Positions 6,729 to 16,456 of a stretch of DNA of 64,000 bases are shown piece by piece. How positions within the stretch are numbered: the stretch's first letter is position 1; every line of letters starts with the position of its first letter. The DNA lies in contig NZ_CP010310.2 of assembly GCF_000815105.2 (NCBI RefSeq), forward strand, positions 558,001 through 622,000. Reading direction: 5' to 3'. This DNA is from Pandoraea pulmonicola. GTDB taxonomy: Bacteria; Pseudomonadota; Gammaproteobacteria; Burkholderiales; Burkholderiaceae. Made by a program: the position numbers and the translations under genes. The notes under the pieces were generated by a model that did no database searches, was not told where the DNA came from, and was given only the letters and a program-made list of their open reading frames with translations.

Positions 6729-7041
6729 TCGCACGCGACGCTGGCCCGGCGGCGGTCCAGCGTCTTCCCTTCGCATCATCGGCATCGCGCCGACGTTTTT
6801 CTTTTCGCATCGCACCGGCCATCGTGCCGGACGATGCGTTGTCTGTGCCGCAGCCTGCGTCCTACACGACTTTGCAGGTGTTCCGCTCGCTTCCCATTCG
6901 CTTAAATGACGCTTCACGGCGTGCATGAACGAAGGGCATCGCGAAAGGCACCTCCCTCGTTCAGCCACGCCATTCCATTGCCTTAGGGTGTGCTTAAGCG
7001 CGCTTACAGCGTGCTTAAGGCGTGATTTCGGGAGGTTGACC
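6729..7041. other. Spacer and probable promoter region before the biosynthetic cluster
   Basis: No gene is visible. The region holds a strong hairpin at 6807-6837 (GCATCG and CCGGC arms), a 25-base CCTGC-N15-GCAGG dyad at 6854-6878, and the CTTAAG-type repeats at 6991-7020. A clear sigma-70 promoter is not evident, which would fit activator-dependent expression. This is where the conserved core chromosome gives way to the accessory cluster. Confidence 0.45.
6991..7020. repeat. Triple GTGCTTAAG-type repeat with a 12-base palindrome
   Basis: Three near-copies of GYGCTTAMR occur at 6991, 7001 and 7012, spaced 10-11 bases, about one helical turn. Between the first and second lies the perfect palindrome TAAGCGCGCTTA at 6996-7007. 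It sits 22-51 bases before the first biosynthetic gene, where a regulator could bind. It does not match a standard lux box, so the binding protein is unknown. Confidence 0.4.
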
Positions 7042-8124
7042 GTGGGGCATCAACACCAGACGTTGGCAGCGCTGTCGCGGACTTCTCCCGCGACACGAGA
7101 CGGATCGGAAGATGGTCCGGCGCTGCGCGTGGACGGCGATTTCCTGCGGCCGGCCACGCCGGTCTTCGCGACGATCGACGGGCTGTGTGCCGCACCGGTC
7201 CGTCTGAAGCTCGAAGGACTGAATCCGGCGGGGTCGATCAAGCTCAAGACGGCGCTGCAGTTGATCGAGGACCTGGAGGCGGCCGGTCGCATTCAGCGCG
7301 ATACGCATATCGTTGAATCGTCGTCGGGCAACCTGGGCGTTGCGCTTGCGTTGGTGTGCGCCAATCGTGGCTATCGCTTCACCTGCGTCACCGATCCGAA
7401 TACCCCGCGGCATGCCGTGCGGATCATGCAGTCGTCGGGCGCCCATGTCGTCCGCGTGGAACGACGTGATGCACAAGGCGGTTTCCTCGGCACACGCATT
7501 GCGTGGGTGCGAGCGCAGGTGCAGAAGGACGCGCGCTGGCTCTGGCTCAACCAGTATGCCAATCCGGCCAATTGGCGAGCGCACTATCGATGGACCGCGC
7601 CGGAAATCTTCGCGGCCTTTCCCCGCGTCGACCATCTGTTCGTTGGCGCGGGTACGACCGGAACGTTGCTCGGATGCTTGCGATATGTGCGTGCATATCG
7701 ATTGTCCACGCGCGTCGTCGCGGTGGATGCCGTGGGGTCCGTGACGTTCGGCGGCCCACCCGGGACGCGTCGAATTCCCGGACTCGGCACCAGTTGCCGG
7801 CCGCCGCTGTGCGAGCCGCCACACGCCGAACCGCCCGACGCCATCATCCACGTCCCCGAGCCGGAGACATTGCGAATGTGCTGCGCCTTGGCGCAGCGAG
7901 GGCTGTTGGCGGGCGGTTCCTCCGGCAGCGTGTTGCGTGCCGTGCAGATGTCGGGTGCGGACATCGCGTCGGGCGAGACAGTCGTCGCCATCGCGCCGGA
8001 CATGGGCGACAAGTATCTGGATACCGTCTACGACCCCGATTGGGCCGCGACGTACTTCGCGGATATGCCGACTCACTGCGCCACGTCGCCGGTCGTCCAA
8101 ACCGGGAGTCCCGCATGGACATGA
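7042..8124 (+). CDS. sbnA: SbnA-like PLP enzyme (diaminopropionate precursor synthase)
   Basis: Cysteine-synthase-fold PLP enzyme of 360 residues. NPAGSIKLK places the Schiff-base lysine at about K67. The SSSGNLGV loop (about 93-100) and GAGTTGTLLG bind substrate carboxylate and phosphate. SbnA of staphyloferrin B synthesis joins O-phosphoserine and glutamate to N-(2-amino-2-carboxyethyl)-glutamate, and the immediate SbnB neighbour supports the same reaction here. The start is GTG, with GGGAGG six bases upstream at 7030-7035. An ATG at 6925 adds 39 unconserved residues. It overlaps the next gene by 10 bases. Confidence 0.87.
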   Translation: MGHQHQTLAALSRTSPATRDGSEDGPALRVDGDFLRPATPVFATIDGLCAAPVRLKLEGLNPAGSIKLKTALQLIEDLEAAGRIQRDTHIVESSSGNLGVALALVCANRGYRFTCVTDPNTPRHAVRIMQSSGAHVVRVERRDAQGGFLGTRIAWVRAQVQKDARWLWLNQYANPANWRAHYRWTAPEIFAAFPRVDHLFVGAGTTGTLLGCLRYVRAYRLSTRVVAVDAVGSVTFGGPPGTRRIPGLGTSCRPPLCEPPHAEPPDAIIHVPEPETLRMCCALAQRGLLAGGSSGSVLRAVQMSGADIASGETVVAIAPDMGDKYLDTVYDPDWAATYFADMPTHCATSPVVQTGSPAWT

Positions 8125-9146
8125 ATTTTCCACAACCTCAATTTCGCGTTTTCACCGCCGAGCAGGTCGACACTGCGATCCGCGACGAGCGGCACGCCGT
8201 GCTCGATATCGTCGAAGCGGCGTATCGGGCCCATCACGCGGGGCGAACGGTCAATCCGGAGAGTCAGTTTCTGCGTTTTCCCGAGGGTGAACGCAATCGC
8301 ATCATCGCGTTGCCGGCGCATATCCGTGACCGCGGCGGCGACGGTGTGACAGGCATCAAGTGGATATCGAGTTTTCCGGAGAACATCGAACGCGGCATGC
8401 CTCGCGCGTCGGCCGTCCTCATCCTGAATGATCTGGCGACGGGCTACCCGATGGCATGCATGGAAGCGAGCCACATCAGCGCGGCGCGAACCGCTGCGAG
8501 CGCGATCAGCGCGTTGCGCTGTCTGGCGAGGGGAAGCTCGGCGGGGACCGTGCGCGTCGCATTCATCGGGGCGGGGGTCATTGCCCGGCATGTGGCGGAG
8601 TGGCTGCCATTGGCGGCGCTGCCGATCGATCGGGTGACGGTGCACGACATCAATCCGGAATATGCCGATGGGCTCGCGCGTAGGATAGGTGCTGCACTGT
8701 GCTCCGCATGTTCGACCGAAGCCTCACTCGAGACCGCTATTCGAAGCGCGGACGTTGTCGTGTTCACCACGACGGCATCGACGCCCTACGTTGTGAACCC
8801 GGGATGGTTTTCGCATTGTCCACTCGTCTTGCATCTTTCGCTGCGCGATCTGGCGCCGGCGATCATTCTGACCTCTCACAACGTGGTCGATGACGTCGAT
8901 CACTGTCTGCGTGCGCAGACCTCGCTCCATCTCGCCGAAGCGCAAGCCGGTCATCGCCGCTTCGTGATCACCTCGCTACCCGATCTGTTGTGCGGCGGCG
9001 AATCGCCACCACGCGACAGGCCCGTGGTGTTCTCGCCTTTCGGCATGGGGATTCTCGACATTGCCGTCGGGCGCTGGATCTACGAACGGCTTGCCGCGCA
9101 ACAGCCGCCCATCCCCCGTTTTTTCAACGATATGCAACGCGCATGA
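8115..9146 (+). CDS. sbnB: SbnB-like dehydrogenase (2,3-diaminopropionate synthase)
   Basis: Ornithine cyclodeaminase/mu-crystallin family protein of 343 residues with the NAD-binding motif GAGVIAR at about 152-158. In the staphyloferrin B pathway SbnB oxidatively cleaves the SbnA product into L-2,3-diaminopropionate and 2-oxoglutarate. The SbnA-SbnB pair is a strong marker of that amino acid, also seen in zwittermicin- and viomycin-type pathways. A second ATG two codons downstream is possible. Its stop overlaps the next start as ATGA (9143-9146). Confidence 0.87.
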   Translation: MDMNFPQPQFRVFTAEQVDTAIRDERHAVLDIVEAAYRAHHAGRTVNPESQFLRFPEGERNRIIALPAHIRDRGGDGVTGIKWISSFPENIERGMPRASAVLILNDLATGYPMACMEASHISAARTAASAISALRCLARGSSAGTVRVAFIGAGVIARHVAEWLPLAALPIDRVTVHDINPEYADGLARRIGAALCSACSTEASLETAIRSADVVVFTTTASTPYVVNPGWFSHCPLVLHLSLRDLAPAIILTSHNVVDDVDHCLRAQTSLHLAEAQAGHRRFVITSLPDLLCGGESPPRDRPVVFSPFGMGILDIAVGRWIYERLAAQQPPIPRFFNDMQRA

Positions 9147-10618
9147 CCTTAGCTTCCACCAGCCCCTCGTCTCACCATATCGCTTCGCCTGGCGCCGAAG
9201 GTTTCGCCGACGTGCTCGTCGGTCTCCAGTACGGCGACGAAGGCAAGGCAAAAATCATCGACGCGCTCGCCCCCGGATACGATGTGATCGCCCGGTTCAA
9301 CGGCGGCGCCAACGCCGGGCATACCATCGACACGCCACTGGGACGCATCTCCCTGAAGCAGTTGCCCTCAGGCGTGTTCCACCCGCACGCAGCGCTCTAC
9401 ATCGGTTCCGGTTGTGCGATCAATCTCTGGAAGCTTGCCGAGGAGATCGAGCAACTGCGCGACATGGGTGTGTGTCTCGAAGGGCGTCTTCGCATCAGCG
9501 CGCGTGCGGCGTTGGTGCAGCCGCATCACATCGCGCTTGATCGCCGCGGCAGCAGTGCTATCGGTACCACTGGCAATGGCATCGGTCCGTGCTACGCCGA
9601 TCGCGCTCTGCGCGTGCGCAACGACGCACGTGTCAATCTGATGATCGGCGATTTGCTGGAGAACGAGGCGAACGCCGTATCGTCAATGCGCGTTGCATTC
9701 ACGCGGATGGTCAATGCGGACGGCGGCACGTCGCCGTGGATTGCCGAAATGTCGGACCTTTTAATGTCGCTGCCCGCCGTCGCGAAAACACTGCACGCGT
9801 ACATCGAACCGGATCGAAGCTGGCTTACGAGTCGTGTGCAGGAAGGCGCGCGCGTATTGTTCGAAGGCGCGCAATCGGTGTTGCTCGATGTGGTGGATGG
9901 TAGTCAGCCGTATGTCACATCGAGCCACACGGTCCCCGCCTACGCCTATGTGGGCGGCGATCTCGCGCCGAAGTACCACCGCCGCACGATTGGGGTGGCC
10001 AAAGCCATCATGTCGCGGGTCGGGCGCGGGCCGTTTCCTTCGGAGTTGGGGGGCGAGCGTTCTGCAACGTACTGCCATGACGCCGCGCAGAAGCAAGTCA
10101 GCGCAGCGCACGAACGGGAGCAGCACGCCCCTGACGAGCTGCTGCGCTCACGAGATCCATTCGACATTGGCACCGCGCTGCGCATGCTGACCGGCGAATA
10201 CGGCACCGGAACCGGACGGCCCAGGCGCATTGGCATGCTGGATCTGGCGCAATTGCGGGAAGTCGTCCGCGCTCACGCCGTGGACTGCGTCTATCTCAAC
10301 AAGGTCGATTGCCTGTCGCACTACCAGCAGACCGCCTACCAGGGCGTGCCGATGCGGGTGCCGTGCGATGTGCTGCCGAGCGAAGCCATGCCGGATGTGC
10401 TGATCTACCCCGGCCTCACGGAGCGGTCGATCTCGCTCGGACGGGGAGGCACGCTGGATTCCGCCATGAACGGCTTCGTCGATTTCGTCGAACGGCATAT
10501 CGGCGCACCACTCGCCGGTATCGGTCTGGGGCCCGAACGCGCCAGTCTGGTGACGCTGTCGGCACATGAGACGGCGTCGGTCGCCAGTGCGCCGAAGGGG
10601 ATGTCGACGCATGCCTGA
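9143..10618 (+). CDS. Divergent adenylosuccinate synthetase homologue
   Basis: PurA-family GTP-dependent ligase; the canonical enzyme joins IMP and aspartate. P-loop GDEGKAK (31-37), catalytic D32 and H60 (NAGHT), FEGAQ (240-244) and GTP-base motif NKVD (386-389) remain. Unusual points: 491 residues against about 430, with roughly 35 extra residues between GPFPSEL and the aspartate loop. That loop reads GTGTGRPRR where common enzymes have (A/T)TTGR, and the GGVATGSG-type segment is AYAYVGGD (266-273). These changes lie in the aspartate/hadacidin pocket. It may be a resistant target copy or a repurposed ligase. Confidence 0.85.
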   Translation: MTLASTSPSSHHIASPGAEGFADVLVGLQYGDEGKAKIIDALAPGYDVIARFNGGANAGHTIDTPLGRISLKQLPSGVFHPHAALYIGSGCAINLWKLAEEIEQLRDMGVCLEGRLRISARAALVQPHHIALDRRGSSAIGTTGNGIGPCYADRALRVRNDARVNLMIGDLLENEANAVSSMRVAFTRMVNADGGTSPWIAEMSDLLMSLPAVAKTLHAYIEPDRSWLTSRVQEGARVLFEGAQSVLLDVVDGSQPYVTSSHTVPAYAYVGGDLAPKYHRRTIGVAKAIMSRVGRGPFPSELGGERSATYCHDAAQKQVSAAHEREQHAPDELLRSRDPFDIGTALRMLTGEYGTGTGRPRRIGMLDLAQLREVVRAHAVDCVYLNKVDCLSHYQQTAYQGVPMRVPCDVLPSEAMPDVLIYPGLTERSISLGRGGTLDSAMNGFVDFVERHIGAPLAGIGLGPERASLVTLSAHETASVASAPKGMSTHA

Positions 10619-11576
10619 CGCGCGGCAACCGGTTGCCGACCTAGGGGGGGCCTCCGAGGGGCGGGGCGTCCCCGCCGCATCGGCTCGACCATGGCCCGAG
10701 GGCGCTGCCGTGGTTCGATGCCGCACGGAGGCGCCGTTCCCGCCGCTGCAGTCGAGCCATCTGTTCTTCAATGCATCGCTGATGCCATACGTCGCGCATC
10801 GGCTGGTTCGCGAACGCGGAAAGACGGCGAGGCAGCAACTGAGCGCCCGGCGTCTCGCGGACTATCTGAACAAGACGGAGCGGGTGGAGCTGCATATCGT
10901 GAATCGCGCAGTGGAGCAGATGCTCGACCTCGAACCGGGCGTGTCGGTGGGGCGTGACGATTTGCTCGCCGTCTATACCGATGAGGGATTCCACACGTGG
11001 ATGATGGCGCGCTTTCGCGAGCGTCTGCACGCGACCACCGGCGTTACGTTGCCGCAAGCGCCTTCGCCGAGCGTCGCGCGCGTGCTGGCGCTGTGCGAGG
11101 CGGTGCCACCGGCACGTCGCGGACTCGCGATGATCGCGGCGGCGACCGTGACCGAGACGCTGATCACCGGAACGCTGCGACGAGCCGGTGCCAGCGATGA
11201 AATCTATCCACCGGTGGGCGTACTGTTGGCCGAGCACGCCGCGGACGAGATGCGTCACCAGGCGGCCTTCGTCCGTTTCGCCAGCGCATGGGTGCCGTCG
11301 TTGTCTTCGGAGGAGCGGGAATGCCTGGACGACCTTCTGCCCGAACTGATGAGCGCGTTTCTCGCACCGGAGCTGGCTTTGTGGCGCGACCATCTTTGTG
11401 CGATCGGTCTTGATGGAGACGAGGTGGATCGTGTGCTTCGCGAGAGCGTCGATCCGCTCGAGGTCGCGGCGCAGATGATGGCGGCGGCGCTTGTGCCGCG
11501 TCGCCTCTTCGAACGGCTGGGGCTGTCGTGCGCCGATCGCTTCGCACGGCTCGCCAATCGGTGGCGGCCGCCATGA
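10611..11576 (+). CDS. AurF-like di-iron N-oxygenase
   Basis: The 321-residue protein carries the full set of AurF metal ligands at matching spacing: E90, E125-x2-H128 (DEGFH), E182, and H209-x3-E213-x2-H216 (DEMRH). AurF oxidises p-aminobenzoate to the nitro compound, and relatives act in other N-oxidised products. Here the substrate could be diaminopropionate or a derivative. The first 45 or so residues look disordered and poorly conserved, so a later start is possible. It overlaps the upstream gene by 8 bases. The flavin reductase further downstream could feed electrons. Confidence 0.85.
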   Translation: MPDARQPVADLGGASEGRGVPAASARPWPEGAAVVRCRTEAPFPPLQSSHLFFNASLMPYVAHRLVRERGKTARQQLSARRLADYLNKTERVELHIVNRAVEQMLDLEPGVSVGRDDLLAVYTDEGFHTWMMARFRERLHATTGVTLPQAPSPSVARVLALCEAVPPARRGLAMIAAATVTETLITGTLRRAGASDEIYPPVGVLLAEHAADEMRHQAAFVRFASAWVPSLSSEERECLDDLLPELMSAFLAPELALWRDHLCAIGLDGDEVDRVLRESVDPLEVAAQMMAAALVPRRLFERLGLSCADRFARLANRWRPP

Positions 11577-11700
11577 CACCTGCGGACACAGAGGCGCGAC
11601 GCAGCAACACGGCGACGCCACGACACAGTGAAACGACGGGGCGACCCGGTGTCGACAGCGGACGCATTGATCAACCCAGAGAGATCGACCAGGAGGCAAC
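11577..11700 (+). promoter_or_regulatory. Gap between the two blocks of the cluster
   Basis: This 124-base gap is the only real break in the cluster. It ends in a strong AGGAGG ribosome-binding site (11691-11696) four bases before the GTG start of the carbamoyltransferase gene. I see no terminator hairpin and no convincing promoter, so read-through is the default reading, but an internal regulated promoter cannot be excluded. Confidence 0.4.
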
Positions 11701-12747
11701 GTGAAGCATCACTGGTTAGCCCCGGACATGACCATGAGCGCGCCGGACTATCGTGCGCTGCTGAGATCCGCGCTCGCTTTCAAACGACGCTATCCCTCGC
11801 ATACGGAGACGGCGTTGCATGGCAAGACGATCTACTTCCTTTTCTACAACGCGTCGCTACGCACTCGCAGCAGTTTCCAGACCGGGCTGGCACGTATGGG
11901 CGGCAATGCCATCGTGCTCGACCCGCACCACGCGATCTATACGCCAGCCTTGCCGGAGGCGGAAATCCCATACACGACGGAGCGTATCGCCGACGTGGCG
12001 CGAGTCCTGTCGTCGTATGGAGATGCGATAGCGATCCGGATGTACGGCGAACCCGCAGGATGGGTCTATGGCGCGGCCCACCGGCATCTCGAGGCGTTCG
12101 CGCAATGGAGTCAGGTGCCGGTGATCAACATGGAGTGCGATCGATTCCATCCCTGCCAGGCGCTCGCGGACATGATGACGCTGCACGAAAAATTGCACGA
12201 CCTCGCCGGGCGACGGCTGTGCATCAGTTGGGCATATTCCGGAAGCTGGCACAAGCCGGTGGCGGTGCCGCAAAGCCTGCTGCTCGCAGCGGTCAAGGCC
12301 GGTATGGACGTCACGTTAGCCCACCCCGAGCCGCTGGGCCTCGACCCCGAAGTCATGCAAAGCGCAATGCAGTTCGCGGGGCAGACCGGCGCGCGCGTGC
12401 GCGTCACGCACGATCTGCGCGACGGGGTGGAGGGGGCACACGCCGTGTACGCGAAATCGTGGTGCAGTCTCGCGCATCTGCCTTTGCGCCATGGAGACCC
12501 GCTCGACGAGCGGGCAATGCGGGAGACGTTCGACCGTCATCGCGACTGGTGCGTCGATGGCGATGTCATGCGCCTCGCCGCCCCCAATGCCGGATACCTC
12601 CATTGTCTACCGGCGGACCGGGGGCAGGAGGTCGCCGATGAAGTGATCGACGGTGTGTCGTCCTGGGTTTTTCGACAGGCCGCGAATCGCCTGCATGCGC
12701 AAAACACGGTCATGGCACAGCTTCTGAATCCGGAGTGCCTCGCATGA
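11701..12747 (+). CDS. Aspartate/ornithine carbamoyltransferase family enzyme
   Basis: Transfers a carbamoyl group from carbamoyl phosphate to an amine. SLRTR (52-56) binds carbamoyl phosphate. HPCQ (150-153) and HCLPADR (301-307) are the other family motifs; HPCQ resembles N-acetylornithine carbamoyltransferase more than the HPTQ of ornithine enzymes. With SbnA/SbnB beside it, diaminopropionate is a likely acceptor, giving a ureidoalanine (albizziine) unit as proposed for zwittermicin and viomycin pathways. It is 348 residues, starts with GTG behind AGGAGG, and overlaps the next gene by ATGA (12744-12747). The real substrate is unproven. Confidence 0.85.
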   Translation: MKHHWLAPDMTMSAPDYRALLRSALAFKRRYPSHTETALHGKTIYFLFYNASLRTRSSFQTGLARMGGNAIVLDPHHAIYTPALPEAEIPYTTERIADVARVLSSYGDAIAIRMYGEPAGWVYGAAHRHLEAFAQWSQVPVINMECDRFHPCQALADMMTLHEKLHDLAGRRLCISWAYSGSWHKPVAVPQSLLLAAVKAGMDVTLAHPEPLGLDPEVMQSAMQFAGQTGARVRVTHDLRDGVEGAHAVYAKSWCSLAHLPLRHGDPLDERAMRETFDRHRDWCVDGDVMRLAAPNAGYLHCLPADRGQEVADEVIDGVSSWVFRQAANRLHAQNTVMAQLLNPECLA

Positions 12748-14015
12748 GCCCCGCTTTCTCTCATCGATATTCGTGCGTGTGCTGCGCGGCGCCGCAGCCA
12801 TGGGGCGGCATCCGCTATCGATGCAACATCTGCGGACAGAATCTTCGCATCGAGCGGCTGCTCGACGCCCAATCGCCGCGCGGCGAGGACATCGTCCGCA
12901 CGTTCCACGGTAGGGGGATGTGGCGCTACGCGTCGCTGCTGCCCGTGGAGCCGAGTTGGGGGAGCCGTCTGGCCGTCGGCGACACACCGCTGATCGACTG
13001 CGGCGACGATGAAGGCGTCCATCTCCAGGTGAAGGACGAGGCACGCAATCCGAGCGGATCGCTCAAGGACCGTGCGACGGAAATGGTGCTCGCGGCCGCC
13101 AGATTCGCCGGCTGCACGCAGACGATTGCGGCTTCCACGGGCAATGCGGGTGCGTCGCTCGCGTGCATCGCGGCGTCGCAGCGAATGCCGGCGACGGTTA
13201 TCGTGCCCGCCGGCACCCCGCCCGCCAAGCTGGCACAGATCCACGCGTACGGCGCGAAGGTCGTCGAAATCGACGGCAGCTACGACGATGCCTTCGAGAT
13301 CGCCGAACGGATATCCGCAGATGTCGATGTGTGTTGTCGCAATACCGGGATCAATCCCTTCACGCGTGAGGGCAAGAAGACGTGCGCGTTCGAGATCGCG
13401 GAGGCATTCGAATGGTGCGTCCCGGACTGGGTCGTCGTGCCTACAGGGGACGGGAATATTCTCTCCGGCATCGCCGCCGGTTTTTTCGACCTGTTCTCGC
13501 TTGGCATCACGTGCGCCATGCCGCGTCTGCTCGCCGCGCAAGCCGTGACGTCCGACAGCATTACGCGCGACTGGGAGAGCGGCGCCGATCGCACGGGGAC
13601 GCTCGCGTTTCCGGCGTCGCCGGCGGTTGTCCGTCCGGAGACGGTGGCTGACAGCCTGTCGGTGAGCCGTCCTCGCGACCATCTCGCTGCGTTGCAGGCG
13701 TTGCGCGCCACGCAAGGCGCGTGTGTGGCAGTCGACGATGGCGCGATCATGGAGGCCTCCTGCGTGCTCGCTCGGCGCTTCGGTCTGTGGTTCGAGCCGT
13801 CGACGGCAACCGGATACGCCGCGCTGCGTGAAAGTCTGGTGAGCGGACGCATTCGCGCGGGTGAGACGGTTGTCCTGCTCGGCACTGGCAGCGGCCTCAA
13901 GTCGCCGAACGCGTTTGATGGGGCGATGTCTTGCGCGCCACAACGTTTCACGGAGCGCTCGCCGCAGCCTGCGCCAGGGGTGTATCACCAGGGCCTGGAG
14001 GAGCGACGTCGATGA
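12744..14015 (+). CDS. Threonine-synthase-like PLP enzyme with zinc ribbon
   Basis: Fold-type II PLP enzyme of 423 residues. An N-terminal CxxC...CxxC ribbon (C11/C14, C27/C30) is followed by NPSGSLKDR with the Schiff-base lysine at about K108, ASTGNAGAS for the phosphate of the cofactor, and a C-terminal GTGSGLKSP. Threonine synthase itself makes threonine from phosphohomoserine; inside this cluster a related beta- or gamma-elimination/replacement on a pathway intermediate is more likely. It is coupled by ATGA to both neighbours. The exact reaction cannot be read from sequence. Confidence 0.82.
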   Translation: MSPAFSHRYSCVCCAAPQPWGGIRYRCNICGQNLRIERLLDAQSPRGEDIVRTFHGRGMWRYASLLPVEPSWGSRLAVGDTPLIDCGDDEGVHLQVKDEARNPSGSLKDRATEMVLAAARFAGCTQTIAASTGNAGASLACIAASQRMPATVIVPAGTPPAKLAQIHAYGAKVVEIDGSYDDAFEIAERISADVDVCCRNTGINPFTREGKKTCAFEIAEAFEWCVPDWVVVPTGDGNILSGIAAGFFDLFSLGITCAMPRLLAAQAVTSDSITRDWESGADRTGTLAFPASPAVVRPETVADSLSVSRPRDHLAALQALRATQGACVAVDDGAIMEASCVLARRFGLWFEPSTATGYAALRESLVSGRIRAGETVVLLGTGSGLKSPNAFDGAMSCAPQRFTERSPQPAPGVYHQGLEERRR

Positions 14016-15028
14016 CGCGCCCCAGGATCATCGTCCTCGGCGCGGGCGTGAGCGGACTCACCACGGCGGTGACGATGTCGCTCGCCGGGAGCGATGTGAC
14101 GCTCCACTCGGCAGAAGGGCCTGCGCAAACCACGTCGGCGTTGGCGGCGGCTATCTGGCATCCGTTCTATCAGGCGCCGGACCTCGTCTACCTCGCACGC
14201 GCACGTCTGACCTACGACACGATGTGCCGACTTTCCGCCGACGTGTCGTCCGGCGTGAGCATGCGGCCGTTGACCGAGTACTTTCAGCACGATGCCGGCG
14301 CACCATGGTGGGCCGACTGCGTCGAGGGACTTGCGCGGGAATCGAAGGCGGCGGTGCCATCGCGCTTCGCGTGTGCCTACCGGATGAACGTCCCCGTAGC
14401 CGAACCGGCGCGCTATCTCCGGTATCTCATGGGCATGTTCCTCGACCTTGGGGGCAAGTGCGTATTGCGACACGTCGTTGATCCCGTGCCATTGCTCGAC
14501 GAAGCGGACTTCGTTGTGAACTGCTGTGGCTATGGCAGCCGGCGGTTCGGCGATCCCGCTGTGTCGCTCTCCCGCGCCGTCGTGCTGCGCGCCGCGCCCG
14601 ACAACGCCGTACGCGGCTGTTTCATCGACGACTCGGATCCGCAAGCGCCTACGTACATCGTCGAGCGCGACGAGGATATCGTGCTCGGCGGCACAGCGGA
14701 CCCGGAGCTCACGTCCACCGTCGTTGGCGAGCACCAGATCGAGAGCATCGTGCGGCGTTGCACGGACCTGTGCGAGGGCGTCGGCGCGCTGCGCGTCATC
14801 GAGGCGAGGGTGGGCTTCCGGCCGATGCGGTCTTCGGCGCGTGTTGCTCGCGACGATATCCACTCGCGTCTGCTGCACAACTACGGCCACGGCGGCGGCG
14901 GTTTCACGCTGTCATGGGGCTGCGCAACGCATGTGCTGCGCCTGGCGGGCATGGAGGCGGCAACGGCATCGCCGATCGTGCCCTCAACCGTCGGTGGCTC
15001 ACGAGCGGAAGTGGAAAGCGGTGCGTGA
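14012..15028 (+). CDS. D-amino-acid oxidase family flavoenzyme
   Basis: FAD-dependent oxidase of 338 residues. The dinucleotide motif GAGVSG lies at residues 10-15. The C-terminal GFRPMR, which in this family holds the substrate-carboxylate arginine, is followed by HNYGHGGGGFTLSWGCA, a close match to the classical D-amino-acid oxidase signature. It would oxidise an amino group to an imine and release peroxide. In the cluster it may act on a pathway intermediate rather than on free D-amino acids. It starts within the ATGA overlap with the previous gene. Confidence 0.85.
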   Translation: MTRPRIIVLGAGVSGLTTAVTMSLAGSDVTLHSAEGPAQTTSALAAAIWHPFYQAPDLVYLARARLTYDTMCRLSADVSSGVSMRPLTEYFQHDAGAPWWADCVEGLARESKAAVPSRFACAYRMNVPVAEPARYLRYLMGMFLDLGGKCVLRHVVDPVPLLDEADFVVNCCGYGSRRFGDPAVSLSRAVVLRAAPDNAVRGCFIDDSDPQAPTYIVERDEDIVLGGTADPELTSTVVGEHQIESIVRRCTDLCEGVGALRVIEARVGFRPMRSSARVARDDIHSRLLHNYGHGGGGFTLSWGCATHVLRLAGMEAATASPIVPSTVGGSRAEVESGA

Positions 15029-15045
15029 CGACTTCGGGAGACACC

Positions 15046-15690
15046 ATGGAACTGGATCCGGCAACCCTCGACGAAACGAGCATTTACAACTTCATGATGA
15101 GTACGATCCTGCCGCGCCCGATCGCGTGGATCAGTACCATCGATGCGCAGGGACGCACGAACCTTGCCCCGTACGCCTACTTCATGGGCGTGTGCTGCGT
15201 GCCGATGACAGTGCTGTTCTGTCCCGTCGTGCCGCCGCCGCCGTTGCGCAAGAAGGACACGCTGCGCAACATCGAAGCGGTGCCGGAATTCGTCGTGAAC
15301 GTGGCGAGTGCCTCGTGCATCGACGCCGTGAATCTCTCGGCTGCACCGTTGCCGCCCGGGGAGTCCGAGTTCGATCTGACGGGCGCGACACCGGTGCCGT
15401 CGTCGCGTGTGAGGCCGCCGCGCGTGCAGGAGGCGGCCGTGGCGTTCGAGTGTCGCGTGCGCGACATCATCGAGGTGAGCGCGGCGCCAGGCGGCGGATG
15501 GGTCGTGCTCGGTACGGTCCTCGCCGCCCACGTGGACGACGCCTTGCTCGATCCCGCCACGTACCAGGTCGATCTACAGGCGTTAAACCCCGTCGGGCGC
15601 CTGGGCGGCGGCACTTTCGTGAACGCGGCGAGCGATACCTTCACGTTGACGCGTTACAAGACGCTCGCCGATCTGGTGCGGCGCACTTGA
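15046..15690 (+). CDS. Flavin reductase domain protein
   Basis: FMN-binding split-barrel protein of the flavin reductase family (214 residues), recognisable from TILPRPIAWISTIDAQG near the N-terminus and the NLAPYAYFMG segment. Members reduce flavin with NAD(P)H or bind FMN as an oxidoreductase. It could supply electrons to the N-oxygenase. The ATG at 15046 has GGGAG at 15036-15040. A GTG at 15025 overlapping the previous stop (GTGA) would fit the coupling pattern of this cluster. The 3' end overlaps the convergent luxR-type gene by 50 bases. Confidence 0.82.
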   Translation: MELDPATLDETSIYNFMMSTILPRPIAWISTIDAQGRTNLAPYAYFMGVCCVPMTVLFCPVVPPPPLRKKDTLRNIEAVPEFVVNVASASCIDAVNLSAAPLPPGESEFDLTGATPVPSSRVRPPRVQEAAVAFECRVRDIIEVSAAPGGGWVVLGTVLAAHVDDALLDPATYQVDLQALNPVGRLGGGTFVNAASDTFTLTRYKTLADLVRRT

Positions 15691-16456
15691 CGGCAGGGGC
15701 TGCCGCGCACGCCTCGTCGTCGAGCAACCCATAGTCGCTCGCAAGCTTGGCGGCGCGGTGGCGGCTGGAGACGTCGAATTTGCGCATGACGCTGCGCAGA
15801 TGAAAGACGACGCCGTGCTCCGAAATAGTGAGAATCCGGCCGATCTCCCACGACGTCTTGCCGCGCGCGACCCACCGCAGGCATTCCCGTTCTCGCGGCG
15901 TAAGGACAGGGGCGGCGCGCTGCGCGCCGTCGCGTTGCACGATGCGCCAAACGGCCTCGTGCACATGCGTCGCCAGCACAGCGCCCGCGTGCTGCGTCCA
16001 CGTGCGGACGCCCGGCGGCCGATGGCGATGGGGCGACGCCAGACTCAACAGTCCCCACGCGCCGGAGGGCGCGAACACCGGATAGGTCACGCCCGAGCGC
16101 AACCCGGCAGCCCGTTGCTCATGGAGCAGTTGTCGGGCGTCGGGCGACGCATATATCGAGGGGGCCCATTCGACTGGGGTGATCTGCTGGCATGCCCGCA
16201 AGGTGACGGGATCGATGGCGGCGTAGCGCTGCGCCTCGTAGCGCGCTCGCCATGCGGACGGCAGATTGTCGAGCTGGGGTGTCGCCAGTTGTCCGCCGGG
16301 CAGCGGAAACTGGCCGCGATAGCTGAAGTACCGCTGCCTGAGCGCGCCGCACAACGATTGCAGGCGGGCCCGCAAGGTATCGAAGTCGGCGGCGGACTGC
16401 AGGGAGAGGAGGCCGTCGGCAAACGCGCGGGGTGTGGCGCAACGCATGGCATGCAT
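15641..16456 (-). CDS. LuxR-type quorum-sensing regulator (no LuxI partner seen)
   Basis: Two-domain transcription factor of 271 residues. The N-terminal autoinducer-binding domain keeps the residues that contact acyl-homoserine lactones: W69, Y73, D82-P83, W97 and a glycine near 118-122. The C-terminal HTH (about 186-245) reads LTPRERECLRWVARGKTSWEIG. It converges on the cluster and is its likely regulator. No LuxI-type synthase is in the window, so it may be a solo or use a distant synthase. The start is uncertain: M at 16456 or 16447 fits; the open frame extends to 16603. Confidence 0.85.
   Translation of the reverse strand: MHAMRCATPRAFADGLLSLQSAADFDTLRARLQSLCGALRQRYFSYRGQFPLPGGQLATPQLDNLPSAWRARYEAQRYAAIDPVTLRACQQITPVEWAPSIYASPDARQLLHEQRAAGLRSGVTYPVFAPSGAWGLLSLASPHRHRPPGVRTWTQHAGAVLATHVHEAVWRIVQRDGAQRAAPVLTPRERECLRWVARGKTSWEIGRILTISEHGVVFHLRSVMRKFDVSSRHRAAKLASDYGLLDDEACAAAPAVKCAAPDRRASCNAST

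Follow-up and report, generated by a model that had tools for sequence, protein, structure and literature searches.

An operon free of nonribosomal peptide synthetases, conserved in Pandoraea, that may make an N-hydroxylated and carbamoylated derivative of diaminopropionate

The systems closest to the locus described here are the SbnA/SbnB pair of staphyloferrin B, the arylamine N-oxygenases AurF and CmlI, the L-alanosine (ala/aln) clusters and, within the same genus, the pandorabactin cluster and the regulator LuxR3. According to the available text of PMC12144892, no natural product of Pandoraea had been characterised before the pandorabactins; their cluster, pan, is also a conserved specialised-metabolite locus of the genus, but it encodes a siderophore made by a nonribosomal peptide synthetase (NRPS), with other enzymes than those found here. 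Chua and colleagues reported LuxR solos in all studied Pandoraea genomes except P. thiooxydans, and the part of their paper available to us (PMC6691176) names no targets of LuxR3 and calls for further study. The luxR-linked clusters of Proteobacteria are the subject of PMC5872303, in whose available text a term search gave no mention of Pandoraea. A report on Streptomyces scabies (PMC11479980) names a protein with an AurF domain, a carbamoyltransferase and a homologue of SbnB, but its accessible portion does not assign them to a common cluster. We analysed a window of 64,000 nucleotides of the Pandoraea pulmonicola genome (558001-622000 of NZ_CP010310.2, a single contig of 5.87 Mb), in which eight enzyme genes and a luxR gene lie together; those close relatives of its proteins that carry a species name belong to Pandoraea. 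No description of this gene set or of its product was found among the open-licence papers listed by our searches, in agreement with an earlier, sequence-only reading of this DNA, which knew of no described cluster with this set.

Eight consecutive genes on the plus strand (7042-15690, in window positions) encode SbnA, SbnB, a PurA-like protein, an AurF-type N-oxygenase (aurF), a carbamoyltransferase (otc), a threonine-synthase-like enzyme (ths), a D-amino-acid-oxidase-like enzyme (dao) and a flavin reductase; luxR lies on the minus strand and converges on the flavin reductase gene, whose 3' end it overlaps. We propose, with a probability of roughly 0.45, that this NRPS-free operon would direct the synthesis of a small compound derived from L-2,3-diaminopropionate by N-hydroxylation and carbamoylation, of the N-hydroxy-ureidoalanine type, which would be shaped further by a pyridoxal-phosphate (PLP) enzyme and the D-amino-acid oxidase and be switched by LuxR3. 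SbnA and SbnB would provide L-2,3-diaminopropionate, starting from O-phosphoserine and glutamate. AurF, whose enzyme type is clear, would oxygenate a nitrogen, presumably of this amino acid, with the flavin reductase as a possible source of electrons, and the carbamoyltransferase may carbamoylate that same amino acid. The threonine-synthase-like enzyme might then rearrange or epimerise the intermediate and the oxidase act on the resulting amine, both the order and the chemistry being conjectural. The PurA-like protein would be accessory, perhaps as a product-tolerant stand-in for the synthesis of adenosine monophosphate (AMP).

The sequence-only reading had described a nine-gene cluster in two coupled blocks, with no NRPS or polyketide synthase (PKS). 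All nine genes are indeed present with open frames where it had placed them, and their products passed the Pfam cut-offs for PALP (twice), OCD, Adenylsucc_synt, AurF, OTCace and OTCace_N, DAO, Flavin_Reduct, Autoind_bind and GerE. Neighbouring genes of the operon overlap or are at most 17 bases apart, apart from a gap of 124 bases between aurF and otc, which agrees with the two blocks. By Pfam, none of the nine genes encodes an NRPS or PKS, and the operon has no carrier protein either; the claim thus holds for these genes and less so, in spirit, for relatives, where Kitasatospora phosalacinea and genome G296 have an adjacent AMP-ligase. The ratio of nonsynonymous to synonymous substitution rates (dN/dS) was 0.05-0.19 for the nine genes (54 comparisons of the window with six other Pandoraea loci), which indicates that they have been kept functional.

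SbnA and SbnB scored 374.7 and 384.1 bits, above the respective NCBIfam equivalog cut-offs of 349.95 and 326.9, and, as in the staphyloferrin B pair, their genes are adjacent. At the level of enzyme families this supports the earlier assignment of diaminopropionate synthesis to the two proteins, and that they make L-2,3-diaminopropionate is, for a prediction from sequence, well supported. The setting differs from that of staphyloferrin B, in that no siderophore synthetase is found among the nine genes and the next genes encode the PurA-like protein and the N-oxygenase.

An intact AurF-type N-oxygenase had also been predicted, and this too was borne out. Seven positions (E62, E94, H97, E151, H178, E182 and H185, numbered from base 10704), assigned from the residues that we take to be the diiron ligands of AurF, are invariant (18/18) and align with the ligand positions of AurF chain 3chh; the predicted structure resembles CmlI/AurF. 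Yet the identity to these arylamine N-oxygenases was only 17-21% in structural alignments, and the protein scored 23.2 bits against the NCBIfam 4-aminobenzoate N-oxygenase model, whose cut-off is 620. Judged by these scores, it is a relative of the 4-aminobenzoate N-oxygenase AurF and not AurF itself. Its translation most likely starts at the ATG at 10611, within an 8-base overlap with the purA-like gene, and the orthologue P0123 begins alike. A second AurF-family gene, about 23% identical to that of the cluster, is present elsewhere in the same genome (G000:C1:1674349-1675083), and similar genes occur in many Pandoraea genomes.

The carbamoyltransferase is 36% identical to the housekeeping carbamoyltransferase of the same genome and falls below the N-acetylornithine carbamoyltransferase equivalog cut-off (278.8 vs 288 bits). 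The parallel with ureidoalanine that the presence of this enzyme had evoked gains weight, as 6 of the 69 AurF loci further afield likewise combine AurF with carbamoyltransferase and Sbn-type genes; the product itself is conjectural. We regard this parallel as a better lead than alanosine.

The cluster is common within the genus. An otc copy (at least 67% identity) with a luxR match (at least 45%) beside it was found in the same 28 of 32 genus genomes, and both are absent from the same four (G010, G048, G072 and G228); seven of the luxR matches consist of two pieces of one open frame. A sample of 249 genomes of the family included 31 from the genus, of which 27 had aurF orthologues (at least 52%); of the 218 from outside the genus, 11 gave weak matches, 29% at best. 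At 1e-60 or better the otc subclade was recovered from 29 of 398 family genomes, namely the 28 Pandoraea and G296, which belongs to another genus. From sbnA to dao, the seven genes are arranged identically in the nine other 20-kb loci of Pandoraea. Because otc and the neighbouring luxR recur in 28 of 32 genomes and the gene order recurs in another phylum, the cluster is more than a chance assembly.

A scan of genome contigs yielded at least 79 loci. K. phosalacinea (L033) has sbnA, sbnB, purA, aurF, otc, ths and dao in the same order, at 43-63% identity, with an AMP-ligase gene directly after dao and the end of the contig 13 bases beyond it. G296, whose otc protein is a 100% match to P0204, labelled Candidatus Burkholderia humilis, has sbnA, sbnB, aurF, otc, ths and dao at 36-59% identity and lacks purA. 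Its AMP-ligase is in two parts, at the end of one contig and the start of another, 45% and 56% identical to that of Kitasatospora, and the first part carries an in-frame stop; the AMP-ligase is followed by genes for a homologue of the flavin reductase (56%) and for an NHL-repeat protein that shares about 51% identity with its counterpart in the Pandoraea genome G245. Such an NHL-repeat gene (about 51% alike) follows the flavin reductase in some relatives (L126:3618-4475, L026:15098-15946, L028:15027-15878 and L137:1971-2824) and was not found in the window. Downstream of the G296 AMP-ligase, an open reading frame of 83 residues with a DSF motif gave no Pfam match even at an E-value of 10, and we do not claim it as a carrier protein. 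An orthologue of the AMP-ligase was sought elsewhere in four Pandoraea genomes, where the best full-length matches reached just 31-35%. This core of six genes, to which a PurA-like gene is accessory, and its conservation across two phyla are new to the present analysis.

Linkage was also tallied indirectly, by shared length of the longest contig, for high-ranking proteins from outside the main Pandoraea group (37 of 120 listed for PurA, 14 of 45 for AurF and 28 of 120 for otc). Among the 14 AurF-clade proteins, ten had this length in common with a listed PurA-like protein, ten with a listed otc protein, and 13 with at least one of them. This suggests that AurF-clade proteins are linked to PurA-like or otc proteins beyond the main Pandoraea group; actinobacterial contexts other than L033 rest on this indirect matching. 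Plasmids gave six distant AurF relatives, and the two neighbourhoods inspected were both without core genes. Two distant loci have other compositions. In Streptomyces, an apparent further orphan cluster (L049:9307-17688) combines LysE, aurF, carbamoyltransferase, sbnA, sbnB, a 2-oxoglutarate-Fe (2OG-Fe) dioxygenase, a haem-oxygenase-like iron enzyme, a diaminopimelate-epimerase-like gene and an aminotransferase. A Micromonospora locus (L076:8916-16225) has a PLP enzyme, aurF, an SbnB-like protein, a carbamoyltransferase, an ATP-grasp protein and a NodU-type carbamoyltransferase.

The LuxR protein keeps the spacing W-x3-Y-x8-DP-x13-W, followed by GLRSG; we take the spaced residues, by comparison with TraR, to be those of a pocket for acyl-homoserine lactones (AHLs). 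From its position beside cytochrome c oxidase genes and its distribution we take it to be the Pandoraea LuxR3 solo, likewise a genus-wide LuxR adjoining such genes; the available text of PMC6691176 names no regulated genes, and a term search in it gave nothing that pointed to this operon. Upstream of sbnA, all 10 aligned Pandoraea share a conserved block that includes the dyad CCTACA-N6-TGCAGG and, 23 bases on, TTAAAT. The degenerate pattern CCTRCAN6TGYAGG occurs once in the P. pulmonicola genome, at this dyad. More telling than its number is its position: in 24 of 27 genomes the dyad precedes aurF by 3.7-3.9 kb. The distance is 5.2 kb, not 3.8 kb, in G198 (G198:C1:542156-547373), possibly owing to an insertion before or inside the operon, and in G249 the dyad was placed by its distance from otc, which brings the total to 26 of the 28 cluster genomes with the dyad before sbnA. 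The two remaining genomes have near forms: one mismatch in G140, and a near-perfect palindrome, CCTACAAGACCTTGTAGT, in G245, whose LuxR3 is only 45% identical.

The AHL synthase family PF00765 gave two hits in 17 genomes, one of which we take for a real synthase. There is no luxI beside luxR, and the sole PF00765 hit of the P. pulmonicola genome is far away, at 3965284 (28.0 bits with a cut-off of 24, covering positions 6-103 of a 302-residue frame). Since a similar single hit is found in three of four genomes without the cluster, LuxR3 would here probably listen to others. That the cluster had been called quorum-linked calls for some adjustment, as the regulator matches the LuxR3 solo and the sole PF00765 hit of this genome is of a type also present in cluster-free genomes.

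The PurA-like protein belongs to PF00709 and retains the catalytic and most of the ligand-contact residues of adenylosuccinate synthetase (alignment with the PurA of the same genome and 12 relatives; invariant columns in 20 relatives). The contacts with the phosphate of inosine monophosphate (IMP), with aspartate and with guanosine triphosphate (GTP) were assigned to residues that we presume to have these roles. It differs from PurA by an identity of 39% to the housekeeping protein of the same genome, by scores below both PurA equivalog cut-offs (297.9 vs 402 and 261.4 vs 395.55 bits), and by two insertions shared by its subfamily, one of about 28 residues following the FPSEL motif, the other of six following the YAD motif. 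On these grounds a plain duplicate of housekeeping purA was rejected. An obligatory step was also rejected: the G296 cluster lacks the gene, and the two other purA genes of G296 lie outside this subfamily. We therefore consider the PurA-like protein accessory. Nothing was drawn from the position that we take for Thr300 of Escherichia coli PurA, which is variable (Val in the PurA of P. pulmonicola, Gly in several PurA-like proteins). Other Burkholderiaceae carry members of this subfamily in a cassette unrelated to the cluster, together with an AraC-type regulator, RidA, a PNPOx-like flavoprotein and a major facilitator superfamily transporter (L106:6626-11483 by annotation, L124:5330-10397 by Pfam and L125:5293-10394 by the appearance of its open reading frames).

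The features of the locus are collected in Table 1. Its flanks are ordinary, with a methyltransferase gene upstream and cytochrome c oxidase genes downstream.

Table 1. Features of the Pandoraea pulmonicola locus, in window positions
Feature	Position	Strand	Basis
Lux-box-like dyad CCTACA-N6-TGCAGG, candidate LuxR3 site	6861..6878	.	Conserved in 10/10 aligned Pandoraea
TTAAAT, possible -10 element	6902..6907	+	Conserved block, 23 bases after the dyad; putative role
sbnA, PLP enzyme for diaminopropionate	7042..8124	+	NCBIfam TIGR03945; GTG start after GGGAGG, context conserved
sbnB, NAD-dependent partner of SbnA	8115..9146	+	TIGR03944, above cut-off
purA-like, divergent adenylosuccinate synthetase paralogue	9143..10618	+	PF00709; below PurA equivalog cut-offs; insertions
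aurF, diiron N-oxygenase	10611..11576	+	PF11583; ligand positions invariant; model resembles CmlI/AurF
otc, carbamoyltransferase nearest N-acetylornithine carbamoyltransferase	11701..12747	+	Pfam; best PDB match 3m5c
ths, threonine-synthase-like PLP enzyme	12735..14015	+	Pfam PALP; best PDB match 2d1f
dao, D-amino-acid/D-aspartate-oxidase-like flavoenzyme	14012..15028	+	Pfam DAO; best PDB match 6rkf, D-aspartate oxidase
Flavin reductase-like protein	15046..15690	+	PF01613; homologue in G296 cluster, 56%
luxR, taken as the described Pandoraea LuxR3 solo	15641..16456	-	Autoind_bind and GerE; AHL-pocket spacing; available text of PMC6691176

We considered several other readings of the enzymes. 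For the PurA-like protein, protection of the maker by a tolerant stand-in for AMP synthesis and modification of the product by a GTP-using ligase appear about equally probable. The latter, a biosynthetic and not a protective role, in which GTP and an amino acid would serve to modify the product or a nucleotide and so add an amino-acid or nucleotide part, is possible though somewhat doubtful. The separate subfamily, its insertions near the substrate loops and the 39% identity to PurA would fit, and the RidA/PNPOx-like/transporter cassette suggests a general ligase role; yet the core of G296 does without the protein, most of the residues that we assume to contact IMP, aspartate and GTP are retained, and no adenylosuccinate-lyase-like gene is found among the nine. 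An alanosine-like diazeniumdiolate built on diaminopropionate, a chemistry that the sequence-only reading had brought up beside ureidoalanine, is very improbable, and it was rejected together with other diazeniumdiolates. Diaminopropionate synthesis and N-oxidation are both encoded here, as in the ala/aln clusters. However, the nine genes include none for the features named in the available text of PMC11705231, which are a cupin/AraC protein (AlnA type), an acyl-CoA-dehydrogenase-like flavoenzyme (AlaD/AlnG type) and, in some of those clusters and not in others, CreD/CreE homologues. The N-oxygenase is moreover of another type, threonine-synthase-like, carbamoyltransferase and oxidase genes are present, and an alanosine-like product would leave the last two enzymes unexplained. 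Gene clusters that carry tolerant copies of a target exist, and the carbamoyltransferase, perhaps with the PurA-like and threonine-synthase-like proteins, might be such copies, so that only SbnA, SbnB, AurF and the oxidase would build the product. All three do resemble enzymes of primary metabolism, but this seems quite improbable: otc and ths keep their places in the gene order of each of the three lineages compared, 9 of the 69 distant loci also have a carbamoyltransferase next to AurF, and otc misses the N-acetylornithine carbamoyltransferase cut-off. A link to the biosynthesis of 6-N-hydroxyaminopurine, presumably a product of Staphylococcus epidermidis, was dropped; no open-licence paper on that biosynthesis was found, and the plasmid-labelled hit H14 lies amid ordinary chromosomal genes.

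As to the regulator, LuxR3 might be merely a convergent neighbour, the block before sbnA serving another regulator or the core promoter. This is rather unlikely. The convergent orientation would fit, the conserved block is wider than the dyad, and a reversed control pattern is about equally frequent in each genome (one occurrence in that of P. pulmonicola, 0-4 in the others); the available text of PMC6691176 presents LuxR3 solely as a solo without targets. Against this, LuxR3 and the cluster are present or absent together across the 32 genomes, and the dyad precedes sbnA in nearly all cluster genomes, with a near-perfect palindrome even in the divergent G245. LuxR3 likely controls the operon via this predicted lux-box-like site; it would bind the dyad at 6861-6878 and turn the operon on with an AHL, here probably that of neighbours. 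The width of the block and the control counts also weigh against our proposal of a LuxR3-switched N-hydroxy-ureidoalanine type of product, as do a few other observations. The luxR match of G186 contains a stop codon. In G140 (L127:7310-8349) and G154 (L128:8457-9499), both single-contig genomes in which the cluster neighbours of otc match over most of their length, otc itself is broken into two frames, through either sequencing error or decay. The carbamoyltransferases of the distant loci are only 26-30% identical to the cluster otc. The AMP-ligase beside the cluster in relatives, with no close match in four Pandoraea, indicates that products may differ between lineages. Finally, that AurF and the carbamoyltransferase share one substrate molecule is something we infer.

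A broader and unlikely extension of the proposal is that Pandoraea, Actinobacteria and a leaf-nodule symbiont share a hitherto unseen family of NRPS-free antimetabolite pathways, which would build N-hydroxyureido-alanine-type mimics of an acidic amino acid; the PurA-like protein would then mark aspartate-dependent AMP synthesis as the target and protect the maker, and LuxR3 would eavesdrop on the AHLs of neighbours. If the PurA-like protein does protect, the likely target of the product is thereby named.

At this locus, genes for supplying diaminopropionate, an N-oxygenase of the AurF type and a carbamoyltransferase are brought together with no assembly line. Beyond the earlier reading, the present analysis contributes conservation in two phyla, the six-gene core, the assignment of the regulator to LuxR3 and a probable DNA site for it. 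That one core is found both in an actinomycete and in a genome carrying the label of a leaf-nodule symbiont points to a small-molecule pathway that is transferable and useful. Pandoraea is an emerging coloniser of the lung in cystic fibrosis with, by the available text of PMC12144892, one characterised family of natural products so far, and the operon gives its LuxR3 solo a concrete, testable target.

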